A DNA stretch of 51,405 nt, taken from assembly GCA_028131545.1 (NCBI GenBank), contig JAOICL010000014.1, forward strand, positions 1 to 51,405, written 5' to 3'. Below, in pieces: positions 36,233-51,405 of this stretch. Position 1 is the first letter of the stretch. Every line of letters begins with the position of its first letter. Origin of the DNA: Vibrio sp. Its GTDB lineage: Bacteria; Pseudomonadota; Gammaproteobacteria; Enterobacterales; Vibrionaceae. Below the pieces are notes generated by a model. That model was not told the origin of the DNA, searched no databases, and worked only from the letters and a program-made list of their open reading frames with translations. A program made the translations under genes and the position numbers.

Positions 36233-37177
36233 CTATCGTTTATTCTTAAGGTAACGCTTACGACGTTCTTCTTTTTTCTTGATCTTTTCTTCTGTTCGTC
36301 TGGCTTCTTCAATCTCAACTTCAATCAATTCTTGAGTGATCATTTCCGGCCTTTCTAAAGTCAATTGACCCAGTGTACCGTTACGCAGCTCGTGTAATAG
36401 AATTTCAGAGGCTTTATGGAGATCGACTCGGCCACCCGATCTCAGAGCACCACGTTTACGGCCTAGCTCTTCAATCAATTCAATATCGCTTTCTGGTAGC
36501 TCGTCAATGTTATAACGCTCTTTTAAGCGCTCAGGGTAAGCTTGTGCTAAATATTCAATCGTATAGAAAGCCACATCTTCGTATTCCATCGCCGTATCTT
36601 TAACGGCACCGGTTGCTGCAAGGCGGAAACCACTGTGTGGATTTTCAACCTTCGGCCACAAAATTCCCGGTGTATCAGACAAGATAATCCCGTTTTGTAG
36701 GTTAATACGCTGCTGGTGTCGAGTTACCGCAGGAACATTACCCGTTTGTGCAACCGTTCGCCCCGCAAGAGTGTTAATGATGGTAGATTTTCCTACATTG
36801 GGAATTCCCATGATCATCGTACGAATGTTTTTTCCGATGTTTTCACGGTTTGGCGCTAACTTTCGGCACAGATCGAGAATTTTATTCACTTCTTGAGGGT
36901 TTTGAGTCGTGATGGAAATCGCCTTCACGTTTTGTTCTTTCTCAAAGTGTTCAATCCATAACTCGGTCATTTCAGGATCAGCGAGATCGCGCTTGTTCAA
37001 TACCTTCACGACCGGCTTATCTTGCTTCAAACTTGCTATCAGAGGGTTTTCACTACTGAATGGAATACGTGCATCAAGCACTTCAATAATCACATCAACC
37101 TGAGGAATAGATTCTTCAATTTCCTTGCGAGCTTTGTGCATATGCCCCGGAAACCACTGTATTTTGTTTGGAATCAT
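36233..37177 (-). CDS. rbgA: Ribosome biogenesis GTPase, circularly permuted (YlqF/RbgA)
   Basis: The 314-residue protein has the G motifs in permuted order: G4 LNKRDLAD (about 58-65) precedes G1 GIPNVGKSTIIN (about 124-135) and G3 DTPGIL (about 168-173). The start IQWFPGHMHKARKEI is the YlqF hallmark. The family assembles the large ribosomal subunit. The C-terminal tail is very basic (EKIKKKEERRKRYLKNKR), fitting RNA binding. The ATG 37177 is the family start. It is the last conserved gene before the accessory island. Confidence 0.93.
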   Translation of the reverse strand: MIPNKIQWFPGHMHKARKEIEESIPQVDVIIEVLDARIPFSSENPLIASLKQDKPVVKVLNKRDLADPEMTELWIEHFEKEQNVKAISITTQNPQEVNKILDLCRKLAPNRENIGKNIRTMIMGIPNVGKSTIINTLAGRTVAQTGNVPAVTRHQQRINLQNGIILSDTPGILWPKVENPHSGFRLAATGAVKDTAMEYEDVAFYTIEYLAQAYPERLKERYNIDELPESDIELIEELGRKRGALRSGGRVDLHKASEILLHELRNGTLGQLTLERPEMITQELIEVEIEEARRTEEKIKKKEERRKRYLKNKR

Positions 37178-37213
37178 TTGATTTTTATACCTTATTTTTT
37201 GTCCTTCCCATTA

Positions 37214-37237
37214 TGGGGTACATAGTGGGGTACATAA
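37214..37237. repeat. Direct repeat TGGGGTACATA at the island boundary
   Basis: TGGGGTACATA occurs twice head to tail (37214-37224 and 37226-37236, with one base between). Repeats with a TGGGGTACA core are familiar to me as arm-type sites near P4-type integrases, and this pair sits exactly where conserved genes end and accessory genes begin. No integrase gene is in the window. Confidence 0.45.
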
Positions 37238-37365
37238 AATAATTAACCATGTAACTGTATAGAAGAACAGATTATCTTAATATGAATGATTTTAGCACCT
37301 AACCGTCTTAGTGAGAACCGTAAAGTGTGTTACTTCGATCTAGGGTTGAGCCCAACGAGGAAATT

Positions 37366-38349
37366 TTATCTTCTATCTTTTATCTTTTGGTATTCATTAT
37401 CGATCATCTTTTCAATTATTCTTGCAAATGTTTGCCCATTTTCCTTTTTAATCATTAATAGCTTGTAATGATAGTCTCCACCGATCATTGTATTTAAATT
37501 TACGACATCAGATCGTTTGCTTTTCATTTTGTAAAGATAAGAACGCCATGAGTTCTTTAAATATTGTGAGTAAATTAACCTTAAAGCTATTTTGTCTTTT
37601 AAGGAAAATAAAGCTATAGATGATATAACGTTTAGGTAATTTTGGTGATTATTAGTATTTTCCGGGAATATTAATAAAATCGTGTTCCTATCGGTAGTTA
37701 ATAGGTTGTCTTTTATTATCCAGTTTATCATCCAAGGAATTATGTCATCTCTGTTGTTTTTATTTATCCACTTTATGATTGTCTTTATTTCATTGTAAGC
37801 AGTGTTCCAGATGTCAATAAAGAACTTCATTAGTTTTTTTTGCTCTTCTATATGAATTTCACTTTTAAAGAAGGAGTTTATTAATACCTCAAGTCTCCCC
37901 TTGTGGTTAATAGGTGAGTCATTTACATCGCTGTATAAGTTTAGGCGATAGTTCTTAGTTATCAACTCATCAATTGTTATATTTTGACTCTCATAATTTG
38001 GTCCCATACCAATGAGGTGACGTGATGGACTTAAGGCGGTTCTGCACTGCTTATCAAATAAAGATGGGTTATTTTTATATTCTATATAAATTGAATAAAT
38101 GAAAGCACATGGAAGTTCATCATTTAACCAATCAAAACTAGATTTATTCAATTGTTGTGTTTTCTTGAACTCACTCTTTATAATGTTTGCCTTACTCTCT
38201 AGGTTCTCATTAATTAATTCTTTCTTTAATGTATCCTCGGCTTGGTCGAGGGTTCTGAAATTGAATACTAATTCTAATTTATAGTTGTCAATATCTTTAA
38301 ATAGCTCTTTGTATATATATACTGCCTCTCTCCAGCACTTAAGTTCCAT
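37366..38349 (-). CDS. Hypothetical protein (327 aa) of the accessory island
   Basis: No family was recognised. The protein is rich in I, N, K and W, has no signal peptide or clear membrane helix, and looks mostly alpha-helical (many runs such as LMKFFIDIWNTAYNEIKTII). The middle has ALSPSRHLIGMGPNYESQ. Codon and base use are very AT-rich compared with the genes before 37.2 kb. ATG 38349 follows AAGGGGT, so translation is likely. It is transcribed away from the Gp2-like gene. A role in the mobile element or in phage defence is possible, but nothing in the sequence proves either. Confidence 0.65.
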   Translation of the reverse strand: MELKCWREAVYIYKELFKDIDNYKLELVFNFRTLDQAEDTLKKELINENLESKANIIKSEFKKTQQLNKSSFDWLNDELPCAFIYSIYIEYKNNPSLFDKQCRTALSPSRHLIGMGPNYESQNITIDELITKNYRLNLYSDVNDSPINHKGRLEVLINSFFKSEIHIEEQKKLMKFFIDIWNTAYNEIKTIIKWINKNNRDDIIPWMINWIIKDNLLTTDRNTILLIFPENTNNHQNYLNVISSIALFSLKDKIALRLIYSQYLKNSWRSYLYKMKSKRSDVVNLNTMIGGDYHYKLLMIKKENGQTFARIIEKMIDNEYQKIKDRR

Positions 38350-38822
38350 ATTTACCCCTTATGTTATCTATTGTTGTTAAGTCACATTTTAATTCTGATA
38401 TTGTTGCTTTTTAACTTTGTTTTTAATGTTGAATTAGCACCTTAATAATCAATTTATAATGTTATATTAGTGTTTGATTGATACTGTTTCATTAACATTA
38501 TAGTAGTTTTTTAACAAACCATACTAGGGAGTTTGTCATGTTCATAAGGCTCTCTGAGATATCTCCTATCACGATACACCTAAAGCTTCATGCCGTAACC
38601 ATAGTGTTATAATTTGAAACGTATAACTTCAGAGTTTAATTTTATTATATTGGTGTTGTAATTTTCTTTTTTCAATATGGGTTTTTGCTTGTTTTTATTT
38701 GTCCCATGTCGGTATGATTAATATTATATTGTTTATGGTGTGTTGTTATATGTAGTGTTGAGGTGATGAATTATATTATATTTACCTTGTACTTGTTATG
38801 CATATTAGTAGGAGGTAGTGCA
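38350..38822. other. 473-bp AT-rich region between divergent island genes
   Basis: No gene is visible. It includes an interrupted inverted repeat (ACAAAC at about 38515 and GTTTGT at about 38532), a GAGATATCTC palindrome near 38557 and many A/T runs, consistent with promoters, and possibly a replication origin of the element that uses the Gp2-like protein. An upstream in-frame ATG at 38763 exists but has a hydrophobic and poorly conserved extension. Confidence 0.4.
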
Positions 38823-39473
38823 ATGACGAATAAGTATAAAGGACTAGATATTATAAGAGAGTTGGATAAGATGAATGTATATTACTTAGATAGGATTGAA
38901 CGTACTTTAGCTATAGCTTGTTCTAGTTGTAATAGAACATATGCTATCAGGGTTGATTTGAGATTGCCTAATAATGATAACCTAGATAGTGAAGATAGAG
39001 ATTGTATTTATTACTCTATAGTTGATAAAAGGGATTTAATGAAAAGGTTCTTTGAGTCACTAAACTCTAAGATTAAGTGTCAATACAATAGAAAAGTAAA
39101 AGATAGTATTAGAGTACACAAAACAAAAGTAAGATACATATGGGTGAGAGAGGAAGGTAAATCAGGGAAGCCACATTATCATGTTTGTTTACTATTGAAT
39201 AAAGATAGGTTTTATCGAGCAGGGAATATTGAGGATAAAGAGAGCTTATCTTTTTTAATCATAAGCGCTTGGGCTAGTGCATTACGGTTGAGAAAGGAAG
39301 AAGTAGTTAGATTAATACATTTCCCAATAAACCATGGGTATTATTTAGAAAGAAATAATCATAAATCTTATGAAGTATTTAATTCGTTATTCTATAGATT
39401 AAGTTATTTTGCTAAAAAAGAATCAAAAAAATATGGTGAAGGCTATAGAAACATCGGCACCAGTATTAATTGA
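38823..39473 (+). CDS. Inovirus Gp2 / YagK-YfjJ-type protein
   Basis: The 216-residue protein matches the YagK/YfjJ C-terminal family (inovirus Gp2) by the signature YIWVREEGKSGKPHYHVCLL, then IISAWASALRL and NHGYYLERN. The H-Y-H motif is like that of HUH replication endonucleases, and family members occur in filamentous phages and in CP4-57-like satellite prophages, where they are suspected replication initiators. ATG 38823 has a near-perfect AGGAGGT 8 bases upstream, so I place the start there. It ends before a strong hairpin shared with the convergent gene. It is strongly AT-rich like its neighbours. Confidence 0.78.
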   Translation: MTNKYKGLDIIRELDKMNVYYLDRIERTLAIACSSCNRTYAIRVDLRLPNNDNLDSEDRDCIYYSIVDKRDLMKRFFESLNSKIKCQYNRKVKDSIRVHKTKVRYIWVREEGKSGKPHYHVCLLLNKDRFYRAGNIEDKESLSFLIISAWASALRLRKEEVVRLIHFPINHGYYLERNNHKSYEVFNSLFYRLSYFAKKESKKYGEGYRNIGTSIN

Positions 39474-39480
39474 AATAGAG

Positions 39481-39502
39481 AGGGACTCATCTCTGAGTCC
39501 CT
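39481..39502. terminator. Bidirectional hairpin between the Gp2-like gene and the LRAT-like gene
   Basis: AGGGACTCA, loop TCTC, TGAGTCCCT, followed by TTGTTT. Confidence 0.8.
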
Positions 39503-39508
39503 TGTTTA

Positions 39509-40210
39509 TTAGTCAAACCAAGATGAAATGATGAAATAGGCATCACCTAAAACATATATAGGTGAAAATGTCACATCAACAAGAGTTTCTAAAGAACCTG
39601 TTATTAATGACTCCGTTGCTTCTATGACTTCTCCTTCAGATAGCTTATTGAATGAGGAGGTCAATGTATCATAGGAACCAATGAGAGCTGTTTCTAAAGG
39701 TTTAGCTATCAGATCCCCTGAAGCGCCCATAAGGGTGTTTACATCATCAGGCAAGCCAATGTATTCCCCCATATATTTAGCCCCTGTTGAGGCGATTGTG
39801 ACCGTTCCAAATACACCTTGAGATAAGACCTTAGTTGAAACTCCTAATAGTCCTTGTTTTGCTGCGAGGTGACAAATAGCATGACCAACATTGCTGATTT
39901 GATTGGAAGTGTGTCGATGTGTCATACAGTAGTTAACAAATTGCTCACAGTTGTTCGTTAAAAGATTATATCCTTTTTGACCTAGCAGGCTTTCTGCTAG
40001 TTCAACTGTTAGTTCTGGATTTACAGAAGGTTTCTTTCTTCTAATAGTCTGATGATTAGCAAAGAAACAAAGGGTACTTTGAATAACACAGCCAGCTTCT
40101 TGACTTAAGTGAATGACTTGGTTATTGCCAGTATAAATTCCATGGTGTTCGGTTGCCCCTAAGATGTCGATATTAGTGACTAAATGATCACCCAGTTGGT
40201 ATATAGCCAT
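39509..40210 (-). CDS. LRAT/NlpC-P60-like cysteine (acyl)transferase domain protein
   Basis: The 233-residue protein has the lecithin-retinol acyltransferase-like fold in its first 110 residues: GDHLVTNIDILGATEHHGIYTG carries the active-site His, and LLTNNCEQFVNYC carries the catalytic Cys with the typical N-C-E-x-F motif. The remaining part has hydrophobic, glycine-rich stretches (KVLSQGVFGTVTIASTGAKYMGEYIGLP) that could insert in or lie on membranes. Bacterial LRAT-like proteins are poorly known; acyltransfer, thioesterase or peptidase roles are possible. ATG 40210 follows AGGAG. It is a common accessory gene on genomic islands next to RadC-like genes. Confidence 0.7.
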   Translation of the reverse strand: MAIYQLGDHLVTNIDILGATEHHGIYTGNNQVIHLSQEAGCVIQSTLCFFANHQTIRRKKPSVNPELTVELAESLLGQKGYNLLTNNCEQFVNYCMTHRHTSNQISNVGHAICHLAAKQGLLGVSTKVLSQGVFGTVTIASTGAKYMGEYIGLPDDVNTLMGASGDLIAKPLETALIGSYDTLTSSFNKLSEGEVIEATESLITGSLETLVDVTFSPIYVLGDAYFIISSWFD

Positions 40211-40450
40211 AGTGTAGGCTCCTAGAGTTGTAATGAGATAAGGTGTTATCGATATTGGGTTGGTGTCGCATTTGTTTGTTTTAAACCCCTTTAAATGACT
40301 CGTCTTAGTTCGTAACTGACAGCCATTTCATTGCAATACAATCAATGTGAGTAGGTATGTAACTTGAATGGTCTTAAAACGAATTAAGAGTAAATTAAGT
40401 CTCCCAATGGGTAACAGTGAGCTTGTCATTGCGTTAATGTGGGAAGTCAG

Positions 40451-40942
40451 CTAAATCCAGCCTTTCTCAGCAAAAGAGGTTACAGTAGTACCGACAACAA
40501 TATGATCTAACACTTTTATATCGATGAGATTTAATGCCTCTGTTAACTTGGTTGTAATGTCACGATCGGCTTGTGAAGGTGTACTTGAACCAGAAGGGTG
40601 GTTATGTGAAAAAATAATCGAAGCAGCATTCACCATTAAAGCGGCTTTAACGACTTCTCTGGGATAAACGGAAGCAGCATTAATTGTTCCCCAAAATAGT
40701 TCTTGGTATTGAATCAGTTGGTTTTGGCTATCTAGGAGCATAACGGCAAAAACTTCTCTGTCATAAGAACCTAATTTAAACTTGAGATAACTTTTCACCG
40801 AATCGGGTTGAGTAAATAAACCACTACGTTGGTACTTTTCAGCCAACGCCTCTGCTGCTGTTTCTAGAATTTGGTTGAGTTCAGTCAAGCTACGAGCATG
40901 AGTAGGTAACGGGTAAATTGAAGGATGTTTGGAACTATGCAT
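40451..40942 (-). CDS. RadC-family JAB/MPN metalloprotease-like protein
   Basis: The 163-residue protein has the RadC JAMM metal motif in full: IIFSHNHPSGSSTPSQAD, with E in QELFWGTINAASVYPREVV upstream. It lacks the helix-hairpin-helix of chromosomal RadC, as do the YeeS/YkfG-type copies found in prophages and CP4-type islands. Its biochemical function is not established. ATG 40942 follows AAGGAG. It lies in the same direction as the LRAT-like gene, 240 bp apart; the gap holds no visible gene. Confidence 0.88.
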   Translation of the reverse strand: MHSSKHPSIYPLPTHARSLTELNQILETAAEALAEKYQRSGLFTQPDSVKSYLKFKLGSYDREVFAVMLLDSQNQLIQYQELFWGTINAASVYPREVVKAALMVNAASIIFSHNHPSGSSTPSQADRDITTKLTEALNLIDIKVLDHIVVGTTVTSFAEKGWI

Positions 40943-41165
40943 AGGGTCTCCTTAGATATTATTGATAGCGTATGCATAGTGGTAATATAGGTTTGTAAAT
41001 ATTTGGAATTCTAAAAAAAGGGCAAGAGTGATATCTCGGCTTGTGAAAGTTAATGAAGATCGGGAGGTAAATTATTATGAGTGAATATTGATAACAAAGT
41101 ACCAGATAACATTTAAAATTGAACAAGTGATGAAGTAAGGATTATTAACCAATTAAGTGGCTGGT

Positions 41166-41185
41166 GGGAGCTGAGCTCAGCCCCC
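41166..41185 (-). terminator. Palindrome downstream of the secreted-protein gene
   Basis: GGGAGCTGAGCTCAGCCCCC contains the perfect palindrome GCTGAGCTCAGC extended by G and C runs, 12 bp after the stop of the minus-strand gene. No T-run follows. Confidence 0.45.
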
Positions 41186-41196
41186 CTAATCGTGTT

Positions 41197-41826
41197 TTAA
41201 CGCACGACTAATGGTAAACTAAAGGCCTCGGTGTTTATGTACGCCACATCTCTGGTGTATTCCCAATCTTCACCTTCTCCGTAAACAACTTCTTCTACAG
41301 TAAATCGAGAGTCCGTAGTAAAGTCGTAGTGAGCGTATTCAATAAAATAGCCACCACTAGGGTATGAATCTGAGGCTTGACATTCACCGTCTATAATTTG
41401 GTATACCGTATCTAGTTCCATAATATCGGAAGTAGGGTAAGTACCATCGTTAGTAACCGCTGGACCATAAGCAGTAAATAAACCAGATTCTTCTGGGTCA
41501 TTCACTGTGTTAGTACAATCGATGTCAGAATAATAATTGTATTCATCAGAGCTGCTAAGTCGTCCTACTTCACCCATAACTTTAATAGCTATAAAGTGTT
41601 CTACACCGTTGATCTCGATTGAAGTTAATACGCGTGGGTAATCATCCCATACAGCATACGCCTGACCAAATACTGCACCATTATTACCGTATAGATATTC
41701 AGTGACTTTCATTTTCTCATCATTGACGTAAAGCTTGCCATCAAAGGCCTGTAACTCGACGTTAGAGAAAGCTGAATATGAAAGGGTAGAAGCTAGAGCG
41801 AGTGTCGCTATATTAAAATTTTTCAT
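41197..41826 (-). CDS. Secreted hypothetical protein (209 aa)
   Basis: The protein has a signal peptide (MKNFNIATLALASTLSYSAFSN) and a mature part of about 187 residues rich in Y, D, E and S with no recognised domain; two cysteines (CTNTV and GECQA) could form a disulfide. It looks like an exported all-beta protein. ATG 41826 has AAGGAT upstream. It lies 47 bp after the small lipoprotein gene in the same direction, so the two are probably co-transcribed and act at the cell envelope. Confidence 0.65.
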   Translation of the reverse strand: MKNFNIATLALASTLSYSAFSNVELQAFDGKLYVNDEKMKVTEYLYGNNGAVFGQAYAVWDDYPRVLTSIEINGVEHFIAIKVMGEVGRLSSSDEYNYYSDIDCTNTVNDPEESGLFTAYGPAVTNDGTYPTSDIMELDTVYQIIDGECQASDSYPSGGYFIEYAHYDFTTDSRFTVEEVVYGEGEDWEYTRDVAYINTEAFSLPLVVR

Positions 41827-41873
41827 AACTGTATCCTTAATTAAAATTGTTGTTTAATAACATCCAAGTTGAT

Positions 41874-42116
41874 TCATTCACGAATAATAATGGATTGCCC
41901 ATTCTGCAACGCCACAGGCTCAGAGCTTGAAACAATGAGCTCCTCTTCGACTTCTTGAATCACTTCAAAATCAACCTCAGTAATATCAGTAGGCATTTCT
42001 GGTGACTCGATATCAGGAGTTTCTATTGGATTACTTTCCTCTGTTGTTGAATCGGAAGAGTCGTTATTACACCCTGATAAAAGCAACAACATGAATAATA
42101 AATGGTAACTTTTCAT
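41874..42116 (-). CDS. Small acidic lipoprotein
   Basis: The 80-residue protein has a type II signal peptide with lipobox LLLSGC (cysteine about residue 16) and an acidic, S/T/P-rich tail (NNDSSDSTTEESNPIE), then VEEELIVSSSEPVALQNG. It has D or N after the cysteine region, and no globular domain is apparent. It heads a two-gene unit with the secreted protein and starts 52 bp from the operator pair in front of the divergent XRE repressor, so it is likely controlled by it. Confidence 0.7.
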   Translation of the reverse strand: MKSYHLLFMLLLLSGCNNDSSDSTTEESNPIETPDIESPEMPTDITEVDFEVIQEVEEELIVSSSEPVALQNGQSIIIRE

Positions 42117-42167
42117 AACATCCTCTATTAGCTTGATTGTCTGTTAGTCCACTATTGAAATCTAAAT

Positions 42168-42231
42168 TGCTCCGCTGGTGGAGCATTTCATTTAAAGATA
42201 GATGAAAAAATAATGTTCCGCAAATGGAGCA
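42168..42231. promoter_or_regulatory. Two palindromic operators for the XRE repressor
   Basis: TGCTCC-N6-GGAGCA at 42168-42185 and TGTTCC-N6-GGAGCA at 42214-42231 share spacer length and the GC start of the spacer; centres are 46 bp apart. The second one includes the GGAG ribosome site of the XRE gene, so a bound repressor would shut its own expression, and the first one faces the divergent lipoprotein gene. Confidence 0.75.
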
Positions 42232-42234
42232 TTT

Positions 42235-42453
42235 ATGAATATTATTGGAAAGCAGTTACAGGACATTAGAAAAGAAAAAAGAGTCACCCAAGAAGAAATG
42301 GTGGCAAGGTTGCAAGTATTAGAAATGGATATAAGCCGAAGTACTTATTCAAAAGTAGAGATGGGTTTAAGGCAAGTGAAGGATTATGAAGTTCTTTTAT
42401 TTGCGAAAGCGTTACAGGTGAAAGTCGAACTTCTTTTTCAGGGGGGAGAATGA
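42235..42453 (+). CDS. XRE-family helix-turn-helix repressor
   Basis: The 72-residue protein is a single lambda-repressor-type HTH domain: IIGKQLQDIRKEKRVTQEEMVARLQVLEMDISRSTYSKVEMGLRQVKDYE. It likely binds the two palindromes just upstream and represses itself and the divergent lipoprotein/secreted-protein unit. The ribosome site GGAG is part of the second operator. Typical of small controllers in mobile elements. Confidence 0.88.
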   Translation: MNIIGKQLQDIRKEKRVTQEEMVARLQVLEMDISRSTYSKVEMGLRQVKDYEVLLFAKALQVKVELLFQGGE

Positions 42454-42774
42454 ATATAAATAATGGCATACGATATTTACCTTGTATCAAAAACACCGAT
42501 ATGCAATCAGGTTATCGATTGCAAGACGTAGTGTAATATCATCGTTCATTAATTTACAAGAGAGAATGTGGTGTTGGTATGATTACAGGAATAGGAATAA
42601 TCTCGGTGGAATTACGACCTGTGTGGGCATCTTCTTACATAGATAGCGTAGGCTGCATTAAAAGTAGACAGAGAAGCTTCTTCAACATACTACAACTAGC
42701 TTTAATCTAATGCGGAAATTAAATTTAATCTGTTGGTGAGTTGTTATGACTAAGGATTAACAACAAGGATTCCA
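42454..42774. other. 321-bp region without a clear gene
   Basis: AT-rich stretch between the XRE and AlpA genes. One frame from ATG 42578 (44 codons, MITGIGIISVELRPVWASS...) is open but has no ribosome site and no recognised match. It probably holds the alpA promoter. Confidence 0.4.
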
Positions 42775-42957
42775 ATGAAATTTTTAAAACTAAATCAAGT
42801 GATTGAGAAAACATCACTGAGTCGCTCTTCTATTTACAGGAAAATGGACTCTAAGGAATTTCCACTAGCAATCAACTTGGGCGGTAGAGCAATTGCGTGG
42901 CTGGAAAGTGATATTGAAGAGTGGATGTACGATAAAATTGAATCGATACAGGGATAA
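42775..42957 (+). CDS. alpA: AlpA-family phage/island transcriptional regulator
   Basis: The 60-residue protein is a typical AlpA winged-helix protein: KLNQVIEKTSLSRSSIYRKM, then FPLAINLGGRAIAWLESDIEEWM. AlpA proteins act as excisionase-like or activator proteins in CP4-57-type prophages and integrative islands, controlling integrase or excision. ATG 42775 has AAGGATTCCA before it. A strong terminator follows. Its presence supports the island interpretation although no integrase is visible. Confidence 0.9.
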   Translation: MKFLKLNQVIEKTSLSRSSIYRKMDSKEFPLAINLGGRAIAWLESDIEEWMYDKIESIQG

Positions 42958-43345: not shown

Positions 43346-44249
43346 ATGCATAAAAATTATGACATTATTGGCGACATACATGGCCATGGAGAAAAATTAC
43401 AACAGATACTGACTCAACTAGGTTATACATTATCAAAAACAGGCTATTTTCACCCTAGAAGGAAAGTGATCTTCGTGGGGGACTTTATTGATAGAGGAGA
43501 AGCGCTAAAGCAACATGAAGCTTTGCTCGATATCGTCATCCCTATGGTTGAAAATGGTCATGCCTTAGCTGTTATGGGGAATCACGAGTTCAATGCGTTA
43601 GCCTATCATACGCAGCATAATGGCGAATACTAAAGAGAGCACTCGCTCAAAAATAAAAAACAACACCAAGCCTTTCTGAATGAATTTGATGATCAGCCTG
43701 AAAAAAAGCAGAGAGTGTTGAATTTCTTCTTAACCTTACCACTTTGGCTTGAACTCTCTGATTTCAGAGTGGTTCATGCTTGTTGGGATCAACGCATAAT
43801 CGAGCAACTCAAACGTATTGATAAACAATATTTATCGAGAGAAGATTTACCTAAGGCAACAACAAAAGGTGATTTTCTTTATGAAGCCATCGAAACATTA
43901 CTGAAAGGCGTTGAAGTTGAGTTGCCTCACGGAGTGACCTTCCAAGATAAAGATAGTAATACTCGAACCGCGACAAGGGTGCAGTGGTGGAAACGTGAGG
44001 CAACCCAATTAGAAGAGGTAGTTTTACCCCCCTAAGTTAAATATTGGCGAAGTAGCGAAGTTACCTATCCCTACATCGGTACCTATCTACCCTAAAGAAG
44101 CACCGTTGTGTTTTATTGGCCACTATTGGTTAAAGGGTGATCTCAATCCATTAGCAAGTAATGTCATCGGTGTTGATTATTCTGTCGCAAAGGGGGGCAA
44201 ATTAGTCGCTTATCAAGTGAGTGAAAAGCGCTTTCGATATGTTGAATAA
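43346..44249 (+). pseudogene. Decayed metallophosphoesterase (calcineurin-like) gene
   Basis: The N-terminus carries metal motifs IIGDIHGHGEKLQQIL, VGDFIDRGE and VMGNHEFNALAYH, typical of bis(5'-nucleosyl)-tetraphosphatase/PrpE-like phosphoesterases. The frame is interrupted by TAA at 43631-43633, where family context (NGEY-x-REHS) suggests a TTA leucine codon, then continues in the same frame through FLTLPLWLELSDFRVVHACW to a TAA at 44033. A shift of one base at the C-run 44027-44032 restores the family C-terminus (CFIGHYWLKGDLNP and KLVAYQVSEKRFRYVE) ending at TAA 44247-44249. So one nonsense and one frameshift mutation. ATG 43346 keeps a good AAGGTAAGGG site. Confidence 0.88.
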
Positions 44250-44428: not shown

Positions 44429-47400
44429 ATGCTCATTGATAATGTAACAAAAAAAGTTTCTGATACGCTATCTGACACGATCCAATTAAATGATAAGCTC
44501 TCTGTCTTAACCGGACTTTTCTCTATCTACGCTTTTGACCATTTGAAAGAATCATTAGATAAAGTTGATTCAGCACGAATTTTGTTCTCGCAAGCGAAAG
44601 GTTTTGATTCATTGAGCGTTACATCACCATTTGGTTCACTCAATGGTTCCGAGCTAGAAAACAAGTTTCGAAATCAGCTAAATCAAAAAGCGATAGCACA
44701 AGAGTTTGCTCATTGGTTAGAAAAAAAGGCATCCGTTCGCTTAGTACAACAAGCGGGAGCTGTTCATCAGCACATCACCCATATCAATTCACATTCAGAA
44801 TCAATTGCTATCAATGGTGCTCAATTCAATGGTCAAGGTATTGGATTAACAGAGTCGAATGGCTTTGATATGATAAGCCTTGCTAATTCAGATCAGGCTA
44901 AGGAGCTTCTAGGGTTCTTTAATCGAGTCTGGGGAAGCAAAGCACAAGTCAAAGATGCAAAAGCACTCCTACAAGCAGAGCTTGCTAAATTTACCACTGA
45001 TCAAACACCACAGTTTATCTACTTCATTACTTTATATAATATTTTTAAAGATTTTGTGGGTGATCTGCAAGAAGACAAGATCTTAAAAACTAAAACAGGA
45101 TTTAAAGATACGACTGTTTGGAACAAGTTATATAAGTTTCAGAAGGATGGTGTCTTAGGTGCTATCGACAAACTTGAACATTTCAATGGCTGTATCATTG
45201 CTGATAGCGTTGGTTTAGGTAAAACGTTTGAAGCTCTAGCGGTAATAAAATACTACGAACTCCGTAATGATAAGGTTCTTGTTCTTTGTCCTAAAAAGCT
45301 GTGTGATAATTGGCTTATCTATACTCAAAACGATAAGCGTAACTTATTAGCAAATGACCGCTTTAACTATGATGTATTAAATCACACTGATATGAGCCGA
45401 AGCCGAGGCTTCTCAGGTGGTATTAATCTAGAGACTATCAATTGGGGCAACTACGATCTTGTAGTGATAGATGAATCTCATAACTTCCGTAACAACAACC
45501 CTAAGAAAGATGGACGTAACCGTTACCAACGTTTACTAGAAGATATTATTCAATCTGGTGTTAAAACAAAGGTGTTGATGCTCTCTGCTACACCCGTCAA
45601 CAACCGTTTGAACGATATGAAAAACCAAGTTGCATTCATTACAGAAGCGAACGACCAAGCCTTAATCGATCACGGTATTAACAGTATTGAGGGGACATTA
45701 AGGAAAGCTCAAACACACTTCTCTAAGTGGACCGAACAAGATCCAGAGACTCGTTCATCGAAAGACCTTTTAGACTCGATGAATTTTGATTACTTCAAGC
45801 TACTTGATATTTATACAATTGCTCGATCACGTAAGCATATTGAAAAATATTATGGTACTGCTGATATCGGTAAATTCCCGACCAGACTATTACCTGTAAA
45901 CCTAAAAGCATCTATTGACCTTAAAGACCAGTTTCCACCATTGGAAGATGTAAACAAGACAATCCGTAGGCTTTCTCTAGCGTTTTATTCTCCGATGAAA
46001 TATGTGAGAGTGGATAAAAAAGACGAATATGCTAGACGTTATGACCAAGAAGTTAAAGGCGGTAAAAGTGTATTTAAGCAAGTGGATCGTGAAGAAAGCT
46101 TGATTCATCTTATCCGTATCAACTTACTTAAACGGATGGAAAGTTCTATTCACTCTTTTGCTCTTACGTCAGAAAAAGTCTTGGCTCAAGTCGAAGGGCT
46201 ACTATCGAAGATCCATACATTTAACGACACCCTCAAACCAAATAACACAGGTGAACTAACAGAAGAGTTTGTTGCACCGCCAATTGAAGAGATTGATGAT
46301 TTAGAATTTAACTCACCAGAACTTGCTCCATTCCTGATTGGTAATAAAACTAAAGTACGTATTCAAGATATGGATTTGATTCGATTCGCACAAGATCTGG
46401 AAGCAGATAGAGCTTTTCTTCAAGATATTGTTCGAGAATCAAAAAGTATTAATTCAGAGCGTGATGCCAAACTCGCTCTATTGAAAGAAGCGTATCTCGA
46501 AAAATGTAAGAATCCGATAAATGGTAATAATAAAAAAGTTATTATCTTTACTGCTTTCGCAGATACCGCAGAGTACCTATACAAAAATCTTTCGGTCTGG
46601 GCTACTCAAGAATTAGGGCTTCACTCTGCCATTATTACAGGTCAAAGAACAGAAACGACCTTGCGTGGTACTGACGGTAAAAAGTTCAAAACTGACTTGA
46701 ACAGTTTATTGACTCATTTCTCACCTAAATCCAAAGAACGAGCAAAAGTCTTTCCAGAGTTTCAAGAAGAAGTCGATATTCTCATCGCGACTGACTGTAT
46801 CTCAGAAGGTCAAAACTTGCAGGATTGTGATTATCTGATTAACTACGATATACACTGGAACCCAGTTCGTATCATTCAACGTTTTGGACGTATAGATCGT
46901 TTAGGTTCAGTAAATGATGTTATTCAACTTGTGAACTTTTGGCCCAATATGGAGTTAGATGAATATATCAATCTTGAAGCCAGAGTAAGCGGTAGAATGG
47001 TATTACTTGATATTTCGGCTACAGGTGAAGAAAACCTTATCGAAACAAATAGCGCGCAAGATCCTAAAACCAACAAAAACATGAACGATTTAGAATACCG
47101 CAGAAAACAGCTTGAGCAGCTACAAAATGCGGTTGTTGATCTTGAAGAAATTTCAGGTGGTGTATCTATTACTGATTTGACTCTAAATGATTTTAGGATG
47201 GACTTGTCTGGGTTCTTGAGTAGCAAAGAGAATGACAATACTGGTGTATTGGAACAATCACCAATAGGTTTGTTTGCGCCAGTGGTTATAGACAAAGAAG
47301 CATTTGAATCAGAATCGAGTCAGTTTTCAGGTCTTAGTGATGAGATTGAGTCAGGCGTGATCTTTTGTCTAAAAGACATTAAAGGGAAAGTTCAAGTTGA

Positions 47401-47755
47401 AGAAAGCTATTCACTTGCACCTTACTATCTTGTCTATATTTCTGATGAAGAAGAAATTTTACTTTCATTTACTCAGTCAAAACAAATCCTCGATCTATGT
47501 AAAAAACTAGGCTCAGAGTTAACCAATATTGACCAATCAACAGACGCTTACAATCAGTTTGCAAGACGTTCTCAAAACGGTAAACAAATGAAGCATTACC
47601 AGAATCTTCTCGCTAAAGCGGTAGAAAACATTGCTGGTAAGAGTGAAGAAATTGGAGCAACGAGTCTCTTCAATCGAGGTGGAACGGTCTTATCTGCATC
47701 AAGCACTCAAAACGTCAATGATTTTGAAGTGGTTAGTTACATGGTGATCTTGTAA
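44429..47755 (+). CDS. SNF2-type DEAD/DEAH helicase, defence-associated
   Basis: The 1108-residue protein has a long N-terminal region (1-240, perhaps a degenerate PLD-like domain), then an SF2/SNF2 motor: Walker A ADSVGLGKTFEAL (about 256), motif Ia VLVLCPKKLCDNW, motif II VIDESHNFRNNNP (about 346), motif III LSATPVNN (about 385), motif V DCISEGQNLQDCDYLINYD and motif VI QRFGRIDRLGS (about 817). The C-terminal 250 residues have no recognised domain. Such helicases are commonly paired with DUF4391 proteins in restriction-like loci. Its stop overlaps the next start (TAATG). It has no clear ribosome site at ATG 44429. First gene of the four-gene operon. Confidence 0.88.
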   Translation: MLIDNVTKKVSDTLSDTIQLNDKLSVLTGLFSIYAFDHLKESLDKVDSARILFSQAKGFDSLSVTSPFGSLNGSELENKFRNQLNQKAIAQEFAHWLEKKASVRLVQQAGAVHQHITHINSHSESIAINGAQFNGQGIGLTESNGFDMISLANSDQAKELLGFFNRVWGSKAQVKDAKALLQAELAKFTTDQTPQFIYFITLYNIFKDFVGDLQEDKILKTKTGFKDTTVWNKLYKFQKDGVLGAIDKLEHFNGCIIADSVGLGKTFEALAVIKYYELRNDKVLVLCPKKLCDNWLIYTQNDKRNLLANDRFNYDVLNHTDMSRSRGFSGGINLETINWGNYDLVVIDESHNFRNNNPKKDGRNRYQRLLEDIIQSGVKTKVLMLSATPVNNRLNDMKNQVAFITEANDQALIDHGINSIEGTLRKAQTHFSKWTEQDPETRSSKDLLDSMNFDYFKLLDIYTIARSRKHIEKYYGTADIGKFPTRLLPVNLKASIDLKDQFPPLEDVNKTIRRLSLAFYSPMKYVRVDKKDEYARRYDQEVKGGKSVFKQVDREESLIHLIRINLLKRMESSIHSFALTSEKVLAQVEGLLSKIHTFNDTLKPNNTGELTEEFVAPPIEEIDDLEFNSPELAPFLIGNKTKVRIQDMDLIRFAQDLEADRAFLQDIVRESKSINSERDAKLALLKEAYLEKCKNPINGNNKKVIIFTAFADTAEYLYKNLSVWATQELGLHSAIITGQRTETTLRGTDGKKFKTDLNSLLTHFSPKSKERAKVFPEFQEEVDILIATDCISEGQNLQDCDYLINYDIHWNPVRIIQRFGRIDRLGSVNDVIQLVNFWPNMELDEYINLEARVSGRMVLLDISATGEENLIETNSAQDPKTNKNMNDLEYRRKQLEQLQNAVVDLEEISGGVSITDLTLNDFRMDLSGFLSSKENDNTGVLEQSPIGLFAPVVIDKEAFESESSQFSGLSDEIESGVIFCLKDIKGKVQVEESYSLAPYYLVYISDEEEILLSFTQSKQILDLCKKLGSELTNIDQSTDAYNQFARRSQNGKQMKHYQNLLAKAVENIAGKSEEIGATSLFNRGGTVLSASSTQNVNDFEVVSYMVIL

Positions 47756-48666
47756 TGGAGCTAATTAACTTTAGAAATAACGATAAAGCAGAACATAGCA
47801 GTTTGATTGAAAAGGTTTGTGAGAATTTAGCCCTTCCAGATTCAACTTTCCTTGGCACTCGTATCACTAAAAAGATGCTGGTGGATAACAATGATTTGAG
47901 TAGTAATGACAAAAAGCTAGTAACGGACGTTATTCAATCTATAGAGTGGCAGAACACCCTTAAGCCAGAAACACTCAATGTTCCTATTTATGTAACTGAT
48001 ACCATTGAGTACATAGAGATAGCGGTAATTCGTGTTGTACTGAAAAACGAGATCAAGAACAAAGCCAAACTTAAGAATGTAGCAAAGCTCTTACATACGC
48101 TGATTCCTTATCCAGTGATTTTACTTTTAGAACTAGGTGAAGAACTAGCGATAAGCCTAGCCGATAAGCGTATCAACCAAGCAGACAAGAGTAAGCTGGT
48201 TATTGAGCATATCTACAACAGTGATTGGTTAAATTCTTCTGGCTTAACGGAAAATGAAAATCATTTTCTTAATGATTTTTCACTGAAAAATGTTTCAAAT
48301 ATTAACTACTTTGAGCTTTATCAAGACTTCATTTCAATGCTTATAGGTTTAGAAACAAGCAAGATTTCAGGTCGTTATCTTTTTAAAAATAATTCAGGTA
48401 ACAATCTTTCAACTGATCAGAATGATAGCGAAGCTGAATCACAAGAAGATGTACAACAATATGATACTTTACACAGTACATCTTTTTCAGAAAAAACTAA
48501 CGAAGATAAAACAGCTTTGCTCAAAGAGTTGGAAAGTTTAGAGGCTGATCTTAGTAGCATAAGAAACAAGATTAAGAAGGAGACGCAAATGAATACGAAA
48601 ATGCGTCTTAACGTTGAAGCTAAAAAAATTAAAGATTCAATTGGTAAATTGAAACGTTCCCTATAA
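47755..48666 (+). CDS. DUF4391-family protein with C-terminal coiled coil
   Basis: The 303-residue protein matches DUF4391 by LALPDSTFLGTRITKKML, then DVIQSIEWQNTLKPETLNVP, the strand EYIEIAVIRVVLKN, and KLLHTLIPYPVILLLELGEE. The last 60 residues form a charged coiled coil (LLKELESLEADLSSIRNKIKK). DUF4391 has no established activity but is characteristically encoded with SNF2 helicases and, in type III restriction-like loci, with a DNA methyltransferase. Here no methyltransferase follows; instead GajA begins 18 bp later. The start codon overlaps the helicase stop by one base, so synthesis is coupled. Confidence 0.82.
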   Translation: MELINFRNNDKAEHSSLIEKVCENLALPDSTFLGTRITKKMLVDNNDLSSNDKKLVTDVIQSIEWQNTLKPETLNVPIYVTDTIEYIEIAVIRVVLKNEIKNKAKLKNVAKLLHTLIPYPVILLLELGEELAISLADKRINQADKSKLVIEHIYNSDWLNSSGLTENENHFLNDFSLKNVSNINYFELYQDFISMLIGLETSKISGRYLFKNNSGNNLSTDQNDSEAESQEDVQQYDTLHSTSFSEKTNEDKTALLKELESLEADLSSIRNKIKKETQMNTKMRLNVEAKKIKDSIGKLKRSL

Positions 48667-48684
48667 ATAAGGCGGTTAGGTTTA

Positions 48685-50454
48685 ATGGCTATTCTAATAA
48701 ATGCAGTAAGAATTTCTGGCTTCAGAGGGATCTCAAATTTAGAGATAAGCTTACCTAAAGTTGCTGTTCTGATTGGTCAAAACAATGCAGGTAAAACTTC
48801 AATTATAAAAGCGTTACAACTGGCTCTTGGTGATTATTCAAGACATTTAACGGATGAAGATTTTTACATTGATTGTGATGATAATGTTCGTTCAGAAATT
48901 ATTGTGGATATTTCTATTGTCCCTGTAGATGAGAGTAGTCAAAGAACAAATATTTTCACTGATGAATGGGTTGAAGTGTTTGGCGATTGGGTTCAAGCAG
49001 ACCTAGAAGAAAATGACTTTGTAGCAATACGAACGATTTGTGAAAAGGACAGCATTAAAGGCGGTTTTAAAGTTAGTCGTTACCCTTTATCTCGATGGTC
49101 TGGCTTTGAAAATTGGACTGATGAATCAGCAAAGATAAATAACAAAATTTCAAAACGTATTGATGCGATTCCATTTGTGGCAATTGATGCTCAGAGAGAT
49201 ATTCATCAGGAGCTACGTGAAAAAACTTCTTATATTGGGAAAGTTTTATCTGACATTAGCTTTGAAAGTGAAGATAAAGAAGCTCTTGAAGATCTGATAG
49301 CGGAACTCAATGAAAGTGCAGTGGAGAAAAGCACTGTCTTAAGTGAATTGAAAACACATCTTGATTCTCTAAGCCAGTCATTCGAAGGTCAAGGTCAGAC
49401 GGATATCACCCCATTTCCCAAAAAGATAAGAGATTTATCAAAGCGATTTTCGATTCACTTTGGTGAAGATGATACGAACTCGTTTTCAATGGAATATCAT
49501 GGAATGGGAACAAGAAGTTGGGCTTCTATGCTTACCGTTAAAGCGTTTATAGACATTTTGGAAAAAAAGCATGTAGAGGAAGAAGAGTGTTTTTTTCCTA
49601 TCATTGCAGCAGAAGAGCCTGAAGCACACTTACACCCAAATGCTCAACGGACACTTTACAAGCAACTGACTGACATTAAAGGTCAAACGATCATAAGCTC
49701 TCATTCTCCTTACCTAGCGTCTGAATGTAAATTACAAGATCTTAGATCTTTAAGGAATGGTAGAGATGGTGTGGAAGTTAATTCTCTTGGGGATGGATTT
49801 GCACCAGAAGATATCAACAAGTTACAAAGAGATGTGATGAGATTTAGAGGTGAAATTCTTTTTTCAAAAGCAATTATATTGTTTGAAGGAGTTACTGAAG
49901 AGCAATTAGCCCCGATCTTTTTTGAAAAGTATTTTAGCAAATCTTGTTACGCAGTTGGGGTCAACTGTGTGAGTGTAGCTGGCAAAAACTACCCTCCATT
50001 TGTAAAGTTAGCGTATCGTTTGGGGATTCCTGTTTGTATTGTTAGCGACAATGATGGAACTACTTTTACAGAAATTAGCTCTCAAATTAGAAAGATTGAA
50101 ACGGAATTTGACTGCCAACTGCTACCTAATGACTTTGTAATTAATTACCTGAATCAAGGCTGTGATATTGAGAAGGAATTAGTTAATCATGTGGGACTAG
50201 TGGTGGAGTTGAAAAAAGCTCTAGTACGCCTTGCGGTTAATGGAAATGGTCACCCTGGCTATATAGAAGCGAAAACTAGGGAAATTGACCAGTTTGATAA
50301 TGATCGACTACTGACTGAATTAAAGAACTCTAAGTCGGGTTATTCAGGCTTTCTTGCTGAAATTATCTCAGATAGTGATAAAGAATCGAGCGAACTGATA
50401 CCACAGGCATTTATAAATGCTTTCGAATCAATCAGAGAATGGAGCGTATTATGA
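48685..50454 (+). CDS. gajA: GajA-like OLD-family nuclease (ABC ATPase plus TOPRIM)
   Basis: The 589-residue protein has an N-terminal ABC ATPase head: ISGFRGISNLEI, Walker A IGQNNAGKTSIIKAL (about 31-39), Walker B IIAAEEPEAHLHPNAQ (about 311-322) and the H-loop ISSHSPYL. A C-terminal TOPRIM domain follows with the catalytic Glu motif LFEGVTEEQL (about 399) and the Asp pair VSDNDGTTF (about 454). This order and length match GajA of the Gabija anti-phage system, a DNA nicking nuclease that forms a complex with GajB and is held off by nucleotides. Start ATG 48685 has a purine-rich AAGGCGG upstream. The end overlaps the GajB start by 4 bp. Confidence 0.88.
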   Translation: MAILINAVRISGFRGISNLEISLPKVAVLIGQNNAGKTSIIKALQLALGDYSRHLTDEDFYIDCDDNVRSEIIVDISIVPVDESSQRTNIFTDEWVEVFGDWVQADLEENDFVAIRTICEKDSIKGGFKVSRYPLSRWSGFENWTDESAKINNKISKRIDAIPFVAIDAQRDIHQELREKTSYIGKVLSDISFESEDKEALEDLIAELNESAVEKSTVLSELKTHLDSLSQSFEGQGQTDITPFPKKIRDLSKRFSIHFGEDDTNSFSMEYHGMGTRSWASMLTVKAFIDILEKKHVEEEECFFPIIAAEEPEAHLHPNAQRTLYKQLTDIKGQTIISSHSPYLASECKLQDLRSLRNGRDGVEVNSLGDGFAPEDINKLQRDVMRFRGEILFSKAIILFEGVTEEQLAPIFFEKYFSKSCYAVGVNCVSVAGKNYPPFVKLAYRLGIPVCIVSDNDGTTFTEISSQIRKIETEFDCQLLPNDFVINYLNQGCDIEKELVNHVGLVVELKKALVRLAVNGNGHPGYIEAKTREIDQFDNDRLLTELKNSKSGYSGFLAEIISDSDKESSELIPQAFINAFESIREWSVL

Positions 50455-51405
50455 TTTCTTTATCCTCATCTCAGCAAGAGATTGTAGAATTTGACATTAA
50501 ATCAGCAATCCAAATCCTTGCTTCTGCTGGTTCGGGCAAAACGAGAGTCTTGACTGAAAGAATTAGATATATTCTTAATAATACTAAGAAAGACAAGGTA
50601 TTGGCTCTTACCTTTACCAACAAAGCAGCTCAAGAAATGCAAGAGCGTTTGGCTGATTTTGTTGGAGTCGAAGAGCGTACTTGGGTATCTACGATTCACT
50701 CAGTCGCTCAAAGTATTATAGAAAGTTATGGGCATACTATTGGCTTGTCCAGTGACTTGCATATATATGAGCGAGATCAAGATCGAATGGAGCTGTTTTT
50801 ACAATCATTAAGAGACAGTAACATTGATATAGATGACTATCTAAACATCAATGACCCTGCTGAAAAGCGTAAGCGAAATCAGGTCATGCAAGGTTATATG
50901 GATGCTTTTGCTGAAATTAAGAGAGAGTTGCTTACTGAGCGTGATGAAATTGAAGCTAGATTCCCAAATGAGCCACGATTTTATGATATTTACCAAGATT
51001 ATCAAGAAGCATTATTAAACAGTGGTGGTATAGATTTTAACGATATTTTGTTCTTGGCGTATAGAATCCTAAATGAACATTCTAACATTGCTAGAACATA
51101 TCAGGTTATGTACAAGCATGTGTGTGTGGATGAAGCTCAGGACTTAAATAAAGCTCAATATGAACTGATAAAAGTTTTTTGTGGGGATCGGATAAAAAGT
51201 ATCTTAATGGTAGGTGATCCTAATCAGATGATTTATGGGTTTAACGGCTCAAAAGATTACTTTGAAAAAGATTTCTTAAGTGATTTTGAACCCAAAACAT
51301 TCACTTTGAGAGAAAATTACCGCAGTAGTAAAGAAGTTATTAATTTAGCGAATGTGATTAAGCCTAATTCTCAGATTAACCATGAAGCGGCATTCAATGG
51401 ATGTG
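50451..51405 (+). CDS. gajB: GajB-like UvrD/Rep-family helicase, 3' end outside window
   Basis: The visible 318 codons begin MISLSSSQQEIVEFD and contain SF1A motifs in order: Walker A ILASAGSGKTRVLTERI, motif Ia LALTFTNKAAQEM, motif Ic VSTIHSVA, motif II VCVDEAQDLNKAQYELI, motif III LMVGDPNQMIYGFNGS and motif IV LRENYRSSKEVINLAN. The remaining motifs V and VI lie beyond base 51405. Full-length GajB proteins are about 500 residues, so some 60 percent is present. ATG 50451 overlaps the gajA stop (ATGA), the usual Gabija arrangement. GajB senses DNA ends and activates GajA in the described system (recalled). Confidence 0.9.
   Translation, partial: MISLSSSQQEIVEFDIKSAIQILASAGSGKTRVLTERIRYILNNTKKDKVLALTFTNKAAQEMQERLADFVGVEERTWVSTIHSVAQSIIESYGHTIGLSSDLHIYERDQDRMELFLQSLRDSNIDIDDYLNINDPAEKRKRNQVMQGYMDAFAEIKRELLTERDEIEARFPNEPRFYDIYQDYQEALLNSGGIDFNDILFLAYRILNEHSNIARTYQVMYKHVCVDEAQDLNKAQYELIKVFCGDRIKSILMVGDPNQMIYGFNGSKDYFEKDFLSDFEPKTFTLRENYRSSKEVINLANVIKPNSQINHEAAFNGC

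Follow-up and report, generated by a model that had tools for sequence, protein, structure and literature searches.

A Gabija pair that very probably sits inside a type III restriction-modification operon of Vibrio

Why does a Gabija pair stand directly behind two genes of a different kind? The stretch in which this question arises, referred to here as the window, is an entire contig of 51,405 nucleotides from a Vibrio sp. (contig C39, positions 1-51405, of assembly G000, which comprises 132 contigs and is 73% complete). Its last four genes encode an SNF2-family helicase, a DUF4391 protein and the Gabija proteins GajA and GajB. The original prediction took them for one four-part defence system, possibly one that works without methylation. 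Comparison with related loci leads to a different answer; in the window, the Gabija pair very probably forms an insert in a type III restriction-modification (RM) operon. The question is of wider interest: Gabija is one of the most common defences, and there is debate about its licensing in the cell.

All four predicted open reading frames (ORFs) are present, in the given order, on the plus strand and with tight junctions, and profiles and motifs agree with the gene names first assigned. The first core gene of the type III operon (44429..47755, +) encodes an SNF2-family (superfamily 2, SF2) helicase/translocase of 1108 amino acids (aa), matched by the PADLOC profile C3a139 ('HKD+Snf2') with 412 bits; the second (47755..48666, +) encodes a DUF4391 protein of 303 aa (PF14335, E 7e-55). 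The pair regarded as embedded cargo begins with gajA (48685..50454, +; 589 aa), which encodes an OLD-family ABC ATPase (residues 1-345) and a TOPRIM nuclease of type A (see below), with a DND motif. It continues with gajB (50451..51405, +), encoding a UvrD-like superfamily 1 (SF1) helicase, of which only the N-terminal half (322 aa) is visible, with no stop before the contig end. SNF2 and DUF4391 overlap by 1 bp, and an 18-bp gap separates DUF4391 from gajA. The gajA/gajB overlap is 4 bp with the start at 50451, which was chosen by homology with a Psychrobacter locus (L056), or 16 bp with the first ATG of the ORF caller at 50439. No terminator-like site was found on the plus strand inside the four-gene run; there is one on the minus strand, at 49336.

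In Gabija, an OLD ABC ATPase is fused to a TOPRIM nuclease and a UvrD-like GajB lies directly downstream. Both features are found here: GajA matches PADLOC PDLC00067 over residues 1-587 (774.6 bits, E 2e-233), Pfam PF13175 and the OLD-like TOPRIM family PF20469 (E 2e-16), and the visible part of GajB matches PDLC00132 (472.6 bits, E 5e-142). Motifs are intact in SNF2 (GLGKT 262, DESH 348, QRFGRIDR 817), GajA (GQNNAGKT 31, LFEG 399, SDNDG 454) and GajB (GSGKT 31, DEAQD 231). The catalytic Glu and DxD of the TOPRIM domain are present as E401 in LFEG and D455-N-D457 in SDNDG, assigned by motif and not from a solved structure; the reference residues are E379, D432 and D434 (PMC10781630). The window does end inside gajB, as had been noted, and the reason is technical, since the contig ends there. 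The remainder of gajB was not found in the other contigs of the assembly, and the full-length protein was read only in L056. A contig end of this kind can mimic a missing methyltransferase.

The usual surroundings of SNF2 and DUF4391 are seen in 44 other SNF2 loci, namely nine genome contigs (L006-L014), eight plasmids (L015-L022; 8 of 14 plasmid matches), seven Vibrio species (L029-L035), one viral contig (L047), the Psychrobacter locus and 18 loci of other genera of the order (L076-L093). These loci are not independent; many were found via sequence closeness, and L015/L016 and L017/L018 appear to be near-copies in SNF2. The loci from Vibrio and from the wider order were picked by means of the DUF4391 profile, which has matches in 8 genomes out of 227 in Vibrio and 20 out of 394 in the order, each count including the genome of the window. 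A type III mod gene lies downstream in 42 of the 44 loci, and a res match too in 40; any matching piece was enough to score res as present, and the gene is broken in L020 and split in L022. Of the two exceptions, L087 lies on a contig that stops after 719 bases, and L092 has mod and res on the other strand. In L006, Mod carries an N6_N4_Mtase domain (PF01555), and Res carries ResIII and RE_endonuc domains (PF04851, PF19778). The core unit is therefore SNF2-DUF4391-mod-res, and SNF2 and DUF4391 normally form the front of a type III operon. They are not a module dedicated to Gabija, since gajAB of this lineage lies downstream in just one of the 44 loci, L056.

This Psychrobacter locus reads SNF2-DUF4391-gajA-gajB-mod-res, with mod 12 bp after gajB; its junctions are three gaps (21, 12 and 10 bp) and two overlaps of 4 bp. 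Compared with the window, the visible half of GajB is 96% identical, SNF2 86% and DUF4391 68%. The view of the four genes as one unit whose arrangement recurs is thus borne out, the order SNF2-DUF4391-GajA-GajB being found again. The supposed absence of a methyltransferase is not; it is very likely an effect of the contig end. What the original prediction had itself named as telling against its model, a methyltransferase gene just after gajB, is found in L056, where mod is followed by res. A Gabija pair lying merely beside an RM locus is ruled out for L056, where gajAB lies between core genes.

For the window, the continuation behind gajB can be approached through the sizes of contigs. Clusters of GajA, Res and DUF4391 proteins were compared by the size of their longest contig, using the best 120 entries of each of the three match lists (with 240, 2286 and 7998 matches in all). 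Longest contigs of equal size occur in five cases for GajA and Res: 17,682 nucleotides (nt; V. splendidus), 3,696,956 (Vibrio sp. 10N.286.48.B7), 26,662 (Shewanella sp. 10N.286.45.A1), 48,639 and 21,302. There are also five cases for DUF4391 and GajA (4,031; 3,696,956; 3,119,997; 26,435; 10,180), and the 4,031-nt contig leaves no room for mod and res between these two genes. Because of the L056 order and these matches, mod and res can be expected behind gajB in the window with high confidence, and embedding of the Gabija pair in a type III operon is very likely. The embedding of a guest between host core genes is directly seen in L056; the window shows the upstream flank.

Gabija is not the only guest. 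Of the 44 SNF2 loci, 8 have cargo in the slot between DUF4391 and mod, and 11 in the slot between mod and res. Cargo before mod consists of gajAB (L056), GmrSD (L047), the PADLOC candidate PDC-S46 (L079, L089), a 900-aa UvrD-like protein (L077, L082), a 287-aa protein without family (L007) and a stretch without family (L093). The PDC-S46 proteins of L079 and L089 are 723-730 aa long and have weak similarity to SMC-type ATPases. Between mod and res, scanning identified GmrSD in L013 and an ATPase with DUF4276 in L034 (PADLOC HEC-01A/B); by eye on translations, L014 and L019 have the same GmrSD type, L035, L081-L083, L085 and L088 the same ATPase, and L093 a short ORF. The OLD-like ATPase and DUF4276 pair is perhaps a split counterpart of the two domains of GajA. 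A more distant ATPase-UvrD pair (by annotation) lies some kb upstream of SNF2 in L018. Ten cargo proteins were scanned, and all but the 287-aa protein of L007, which has no match, fall into families of nucleases, helicases, ATPases or candidate defences. Gabija is one of several slot guests, and a rare one (1/44, L056).

The same GajAB lineage also has other homes. Fourteen GajAB loci were read, the window included; the set is not random and covers 6 of 15 plasmid matches. In six of them, gajAB is linked to RM genes of three types. The window and L056 represent type III. Type I systems are found in L049, with the order hsdM-hsdS-gajA-gajB-hsdR, and in L038 and L041, where gajAB follows hsdR after 23 and 26 bp, respectively. 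In L045, gajAB stands at the end of a gene run behind an MmeI-type gene. GajA relatives are rare: 1 of 227 Vibrio genomes has one, and this is the own genome (1e-40); the order has them in 3 out of 394 genomes (1e-100) and the family in 2 out of 329 (1e-80), the genome of the window being included each time, and the counts are 1 of 105 for Psychrobacter and 1 of 129 for Shewanella (1e-100). Phage records contain none at E <= 1e-40, and megablast of E. coli genomes returned just a gajB piece of ~140 bases, in 6 of 5426 genomes.

What the two front proteins may contribute is suggested by their models and motifs. Residues 1-240 of SNF2 are predicted to adopt a phospholipase D (PLD) fold; the model (pLDDT 77.7) matches SauUSI, NgoAVII and BfiI (E 4e-5 to 4e-4, TM 0.44-0.48). 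None of 42 SNF2 proteins longer than 900 aa has HxKx4D at the PLD motif position (by eye on an alignment; three shorter ORFs of 45 were excluded). The window protein shows an HxK at residue 38 but lacks the Asp, and stray HxKx4D motifs occur elsewhere in L085 (residue 186) and L013 (residue 671). An active HKD nuclease was rejected because the motif is missing at the PLD position; since the helicase motifs are intact, SNF2 is likely a DNA motor (translocase) without a nuclease of its own. DISARM, Hma, BREX and Dpd helicases were also considered as its identity and rejected, the similarity being confined to the core. The AlphaFold2 model of DUF4391 (pLDDT 85.6) comprises an alpha/beta N-terminal domain, a low-confidence linker (215-241) and a C-terminal helical hairpin. 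A nuclease role was considered, but Foldseek against the PDB gave nothing at E <= 0.001; a second fold comparison matched mainly the hairpin, which is a common arrangement. In the literature searched, DUF4391 occurs in one paper, as a table entry without function. Its helical tail and strict linkage prompt the guess that it is an adaptor.

How could Gabija profit from such a host? The reading favoured, by a modest degree of belief, is that of a type III operon front with gajAB in the slot before mod, in which Gabija would deliver a second strike on phage DNA ends made by restriction. From family knowledge, and with both genes read in L056, the predicted role of Mod is methylation of the host DNA, and that of Res is cleavage of DNA that lacks this mark. 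The predicted activity of SNF2 is translocation along DNA with no cutting, DUF4391 is likely an adaptor, and both are core partners of the type III enzyme. A phage surviving the cut would have to protect and rejoin its ends, typically by shielding them from RecBCD; GajAB may then block the rejoining of restriction cuts, with end shielding as the trigger. Methylation and RecBCD would both protect the DNA of the cell itself. This model was chosen because P. aeruginosa Gabija is reported to act on linear DNA kept free of RecBCD and to block end joining (Hong 2025 preprint, PMC12407980), and because the GajAB lineage recurs in operons that make DNA breaks. If Gabija is indeed built in because restriction makes its ends, this would be a natural operon for measuring the coupling gene by gene.

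Several points weigh against this reading. The coupling of Gabija to restriction in this operon is inferred, and a nucleotide-sensing model of GajA needs no RM cuts (PMC8136825). As for the embedding, neither mod nor res is visible in the window, gajAB in the slot before mod was read in DNA at two loci only, the window with one flank, and contig matches of equal size are indirect evidence of linkage. Searches, in both cases with no positive control, found no Res homologue elsewhere in the assembly, which is 73% complete, and no GajA relative (E <= 1e-20) in eight other genomes with an SNF2 locus. An IS630-like element (named by eye) splits mod in L056, so gajAB is kept there beside a probably dead RM system. 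Moreover, 8 of the 14 GajAB loci have no same-direction RM link (L037, L039, L040, L042, L046, L048, L096, L097); among these, L042 has an annotated mod-res pair 0.8 kb behind gajB on the opposite strand, and gajA of L048 is broken.

The lack of such a link in these eight loci also bears on the rival that survives best, in which gajAB would be a trap for anti-restriction; an Ocr-like DNA mimic that blocks the type III enzyme would trigger Gabija, much as PrrC stands guard over a type I enzyme. Sensing of T7 Ocr is stated to activate Gabija, PARIS and Zorya II (PMC12255303), PrrC is encoded inside a type I locus and senses inhibition of that enzyme (PMC12707154), and OLD-ABC/TOPRIM modules have been proposed as backup effectors in BREX loci (PMC12839542). 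The statement on Ocr is second-hand, however, and PMC12407980 argues that ends are sensed and that the action is not abortive. As GajAB so often occurs without RM genes, it requires no RM partner as an object to guard. This guard model is rather unlikely. It is also unlikely that the slot is simply a recombination hot spot on a mobile island, with gajAB and RM genes sharing promoter and inheritance and working independently. The widely varying contents of the slots, most of which are empty, the P4-like island genes upstream of the operon, and the retention of gajAB next to a broken mod in L056 would all fit such a passenger. It is harder to reconcile with the defence-related families of nine of the ten scanned cargo proteins and with the association of this GajAB lineage with RM operons of three types. 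The methylation-free four-gene system of the original prediction, in which SNF2-DUF4391 would feed invader DNA to GajAB, has in its favour the tight coupling of the four genes and is very improbable, given that mod follows SNF2-DUF4391 in 42 of 44 other loci and this gajAB, an insert, in one, where mod comes after gajB.

Some of these loci share a candidate regulator. An RptR-like ORF lies upstream of SNF2 in 12 of the 44 loci (tblastn, 57 sequences searched), leading SNF2-DUF4391-mod-res in L006, L008-L010, L015-L018, L029, L031, L079 and L086. Two more accompany gajAB, in L040 (an E. coli plasmid, upstream of a stand-alone gajA) and in L049 (first in the type I-Gabija operon). By tblastn, there is none in the window or L056, and two stray hexamers in the ~400 bases upstream of the window SNF2 have little meaning. 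All six residues named as conserved in PMC12255303 are kept in 13 of the 14 ORFs, those of L009 not being located by pattern. Operator hexamers at 9-bp spacing are found in six of the 14 loci (L006, L017, L018, L086, L040, L049) and a single near operator site in seven; L029 has none. Two operator sites are held necessary for RptR repression (PMC12255303), and RptR likely controls those members of the type III branch that have paired sites. The same source lists P. heimbachae and S. baltica among the single-site RptR loci, with a type I system that has no hsdS. Because plasmids of these species (L015, L016) carry type III mod-res behind SNF2-DUF4391, with a single site, the 'type I without hsdS' loci are probably members of the SNF2-DUF4391 type III branch.

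GajA itself is not uniform. Between the window and L056, identity is 72-100% per 40-residue block up to residue 360 and 20-45% thereafter. The DNA homology blocks are 48483-49713 and 50441-51405, with flanks of 86% and 93%. The intervening segment, which runs from the TOPRIM domain to the gajA end (49714..50440, +) and differs as a block between relatives, has no DNA match to L056; homology resumes at the gajA/gajB junction. In another relative (P0162), the ATPase domain is identical to that of the window over 345 residues, while the TOPRIM domain is 33-34% identical. A set of 127 GajA rows was compiled from the window, 115 of 119 other best matches (four outside 540-680 aa were dropped) and 11 loci; 118 are distinct in the ATPase part. 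Sorted by TOPRIM similarity, 103 are of type A, that of the window, 24 of type B and none undecided, and these counts are not population frequencies. The DxD motif reads DND in 97 of the 103 type A proteins and DSD in two, with four not located by pattern; it reads DGE in all 24 of type B. Nearest pairs of the two types are 30-36% identical in TOPRIM and up to 100% in the ATPase domain.

On a tree of the ATPase domain (quick IQ-TREE, no bootstrap), TOPRIM type changes at least 11 times, or seven times if only strongly supported branches are counted, compared with 22 times for shuffled labels; the types are therefore clustered yet of several origins. For six type B proteins there is a type A relative that is 95-100% identical over the ATPase domain and 31-35% identical over TOPRIM, and the A. 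towneri and A. pittii proteins, both from gajAB pairs behind hsdR, differ in type. It is likely that repeated recombination swapped the TOPRIM domain under near-identical ATPase domains, since rapid divergence poorly explains a sharp step in several lineages. Such exchange was not found described in the open literature searched, subscription papers and most preprints being outside its scope. It makes two questions testable, namely whether TOPRIM sets DNA specificity and whether its exchange allows escape from phage inhibitors. More tentatively, and with doubt slightly outweighing belief, GajA may be viewed as a sensor chassis with exchangeable nuclease cartridges (DND versus DGE). The gajAB pair would be traded among operons of type I, type III and MmeI type, several of them controlled by one and the same repressor, RptR, with phage inhibitors that cover TOPRIM (Gad1) as the pressure and restriction supplying the DNA ends.

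Upstream of the operon, genes of CP4/P4 type (GTPase, YagK/YfjJ, RadC, AlpA) occupy 36233-42957 and adjoin housekeeping genes. They include a YagK/YfjJ-type replication-associated gene (38763..39473, +; PF11726, E 2e-49), a RadC-like gene (40451..40942, -; PF04002, E 4e-44) and an AlpA-type regulator (42775..42957, +; PF05930, E 2e-21). An LRAT-domain protein is encoded inside the island on the minus strand (39509-40210). The order RadC-AlpA-defence operon also occurs in L049, with an integrase at the far end, and a CP4/P4-like island likely carries the window operon. Between AlpA and the operon, at 43346-44248, a metallophosphoesterase gene is seemingly broken into pieces, with a Pfam match in the first piece only.

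Compared with known systems, each part of the locus has both a familiar and a distinct side. The predicted fold of the SNF2 N-terminal domain resembles that of SauUSI, the NgoAVII R-protein and BfiI, and SauUSI also combines PLD and SF2 helicase parts; the difference lies in the missing HxKx4D. DISARM DrmD and Hma HmaA are weakly similar in the SNF2 core, but the DrmD model scores 155.9 bits, below its cut-off of 610, and no partner genes of DISARM or Hma are among the scanned neighbours. The Mod and Res domains of the relative L006 are those of type III systems like EcoP15I. Whereas the classical EcoP15I system consists of Mod and Res only, the branch described here has two added core genes in front, SNF2 and DUF4391. 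The embedding of defence genes was reportedly treated in a 2024 preprint by Payne et al. Defence genes embedded in RM, BREX and Hma loci are already known (PMC12255303, PMC12839542), and cases of 'guilt by embedding' include darTG2 in a type I operon (PMC12255303) and effectors in BREX loci (PMC12839542). A type III operon with Gabija inside it was not found described in the literature searched. The arrangement as read in L056 shares with those cases a second defence system between core genes of a host system, and differs in that the host is an SNF2-DUF4391 type III operon and the guest is Gabija. GajA and GajB are members of Gabija by profile and motif; unlike the stand-alone pair as which Gabija is known, they very likely lie inside a type III operon here, with a TOPRIM domain of one of two exchangeable types.

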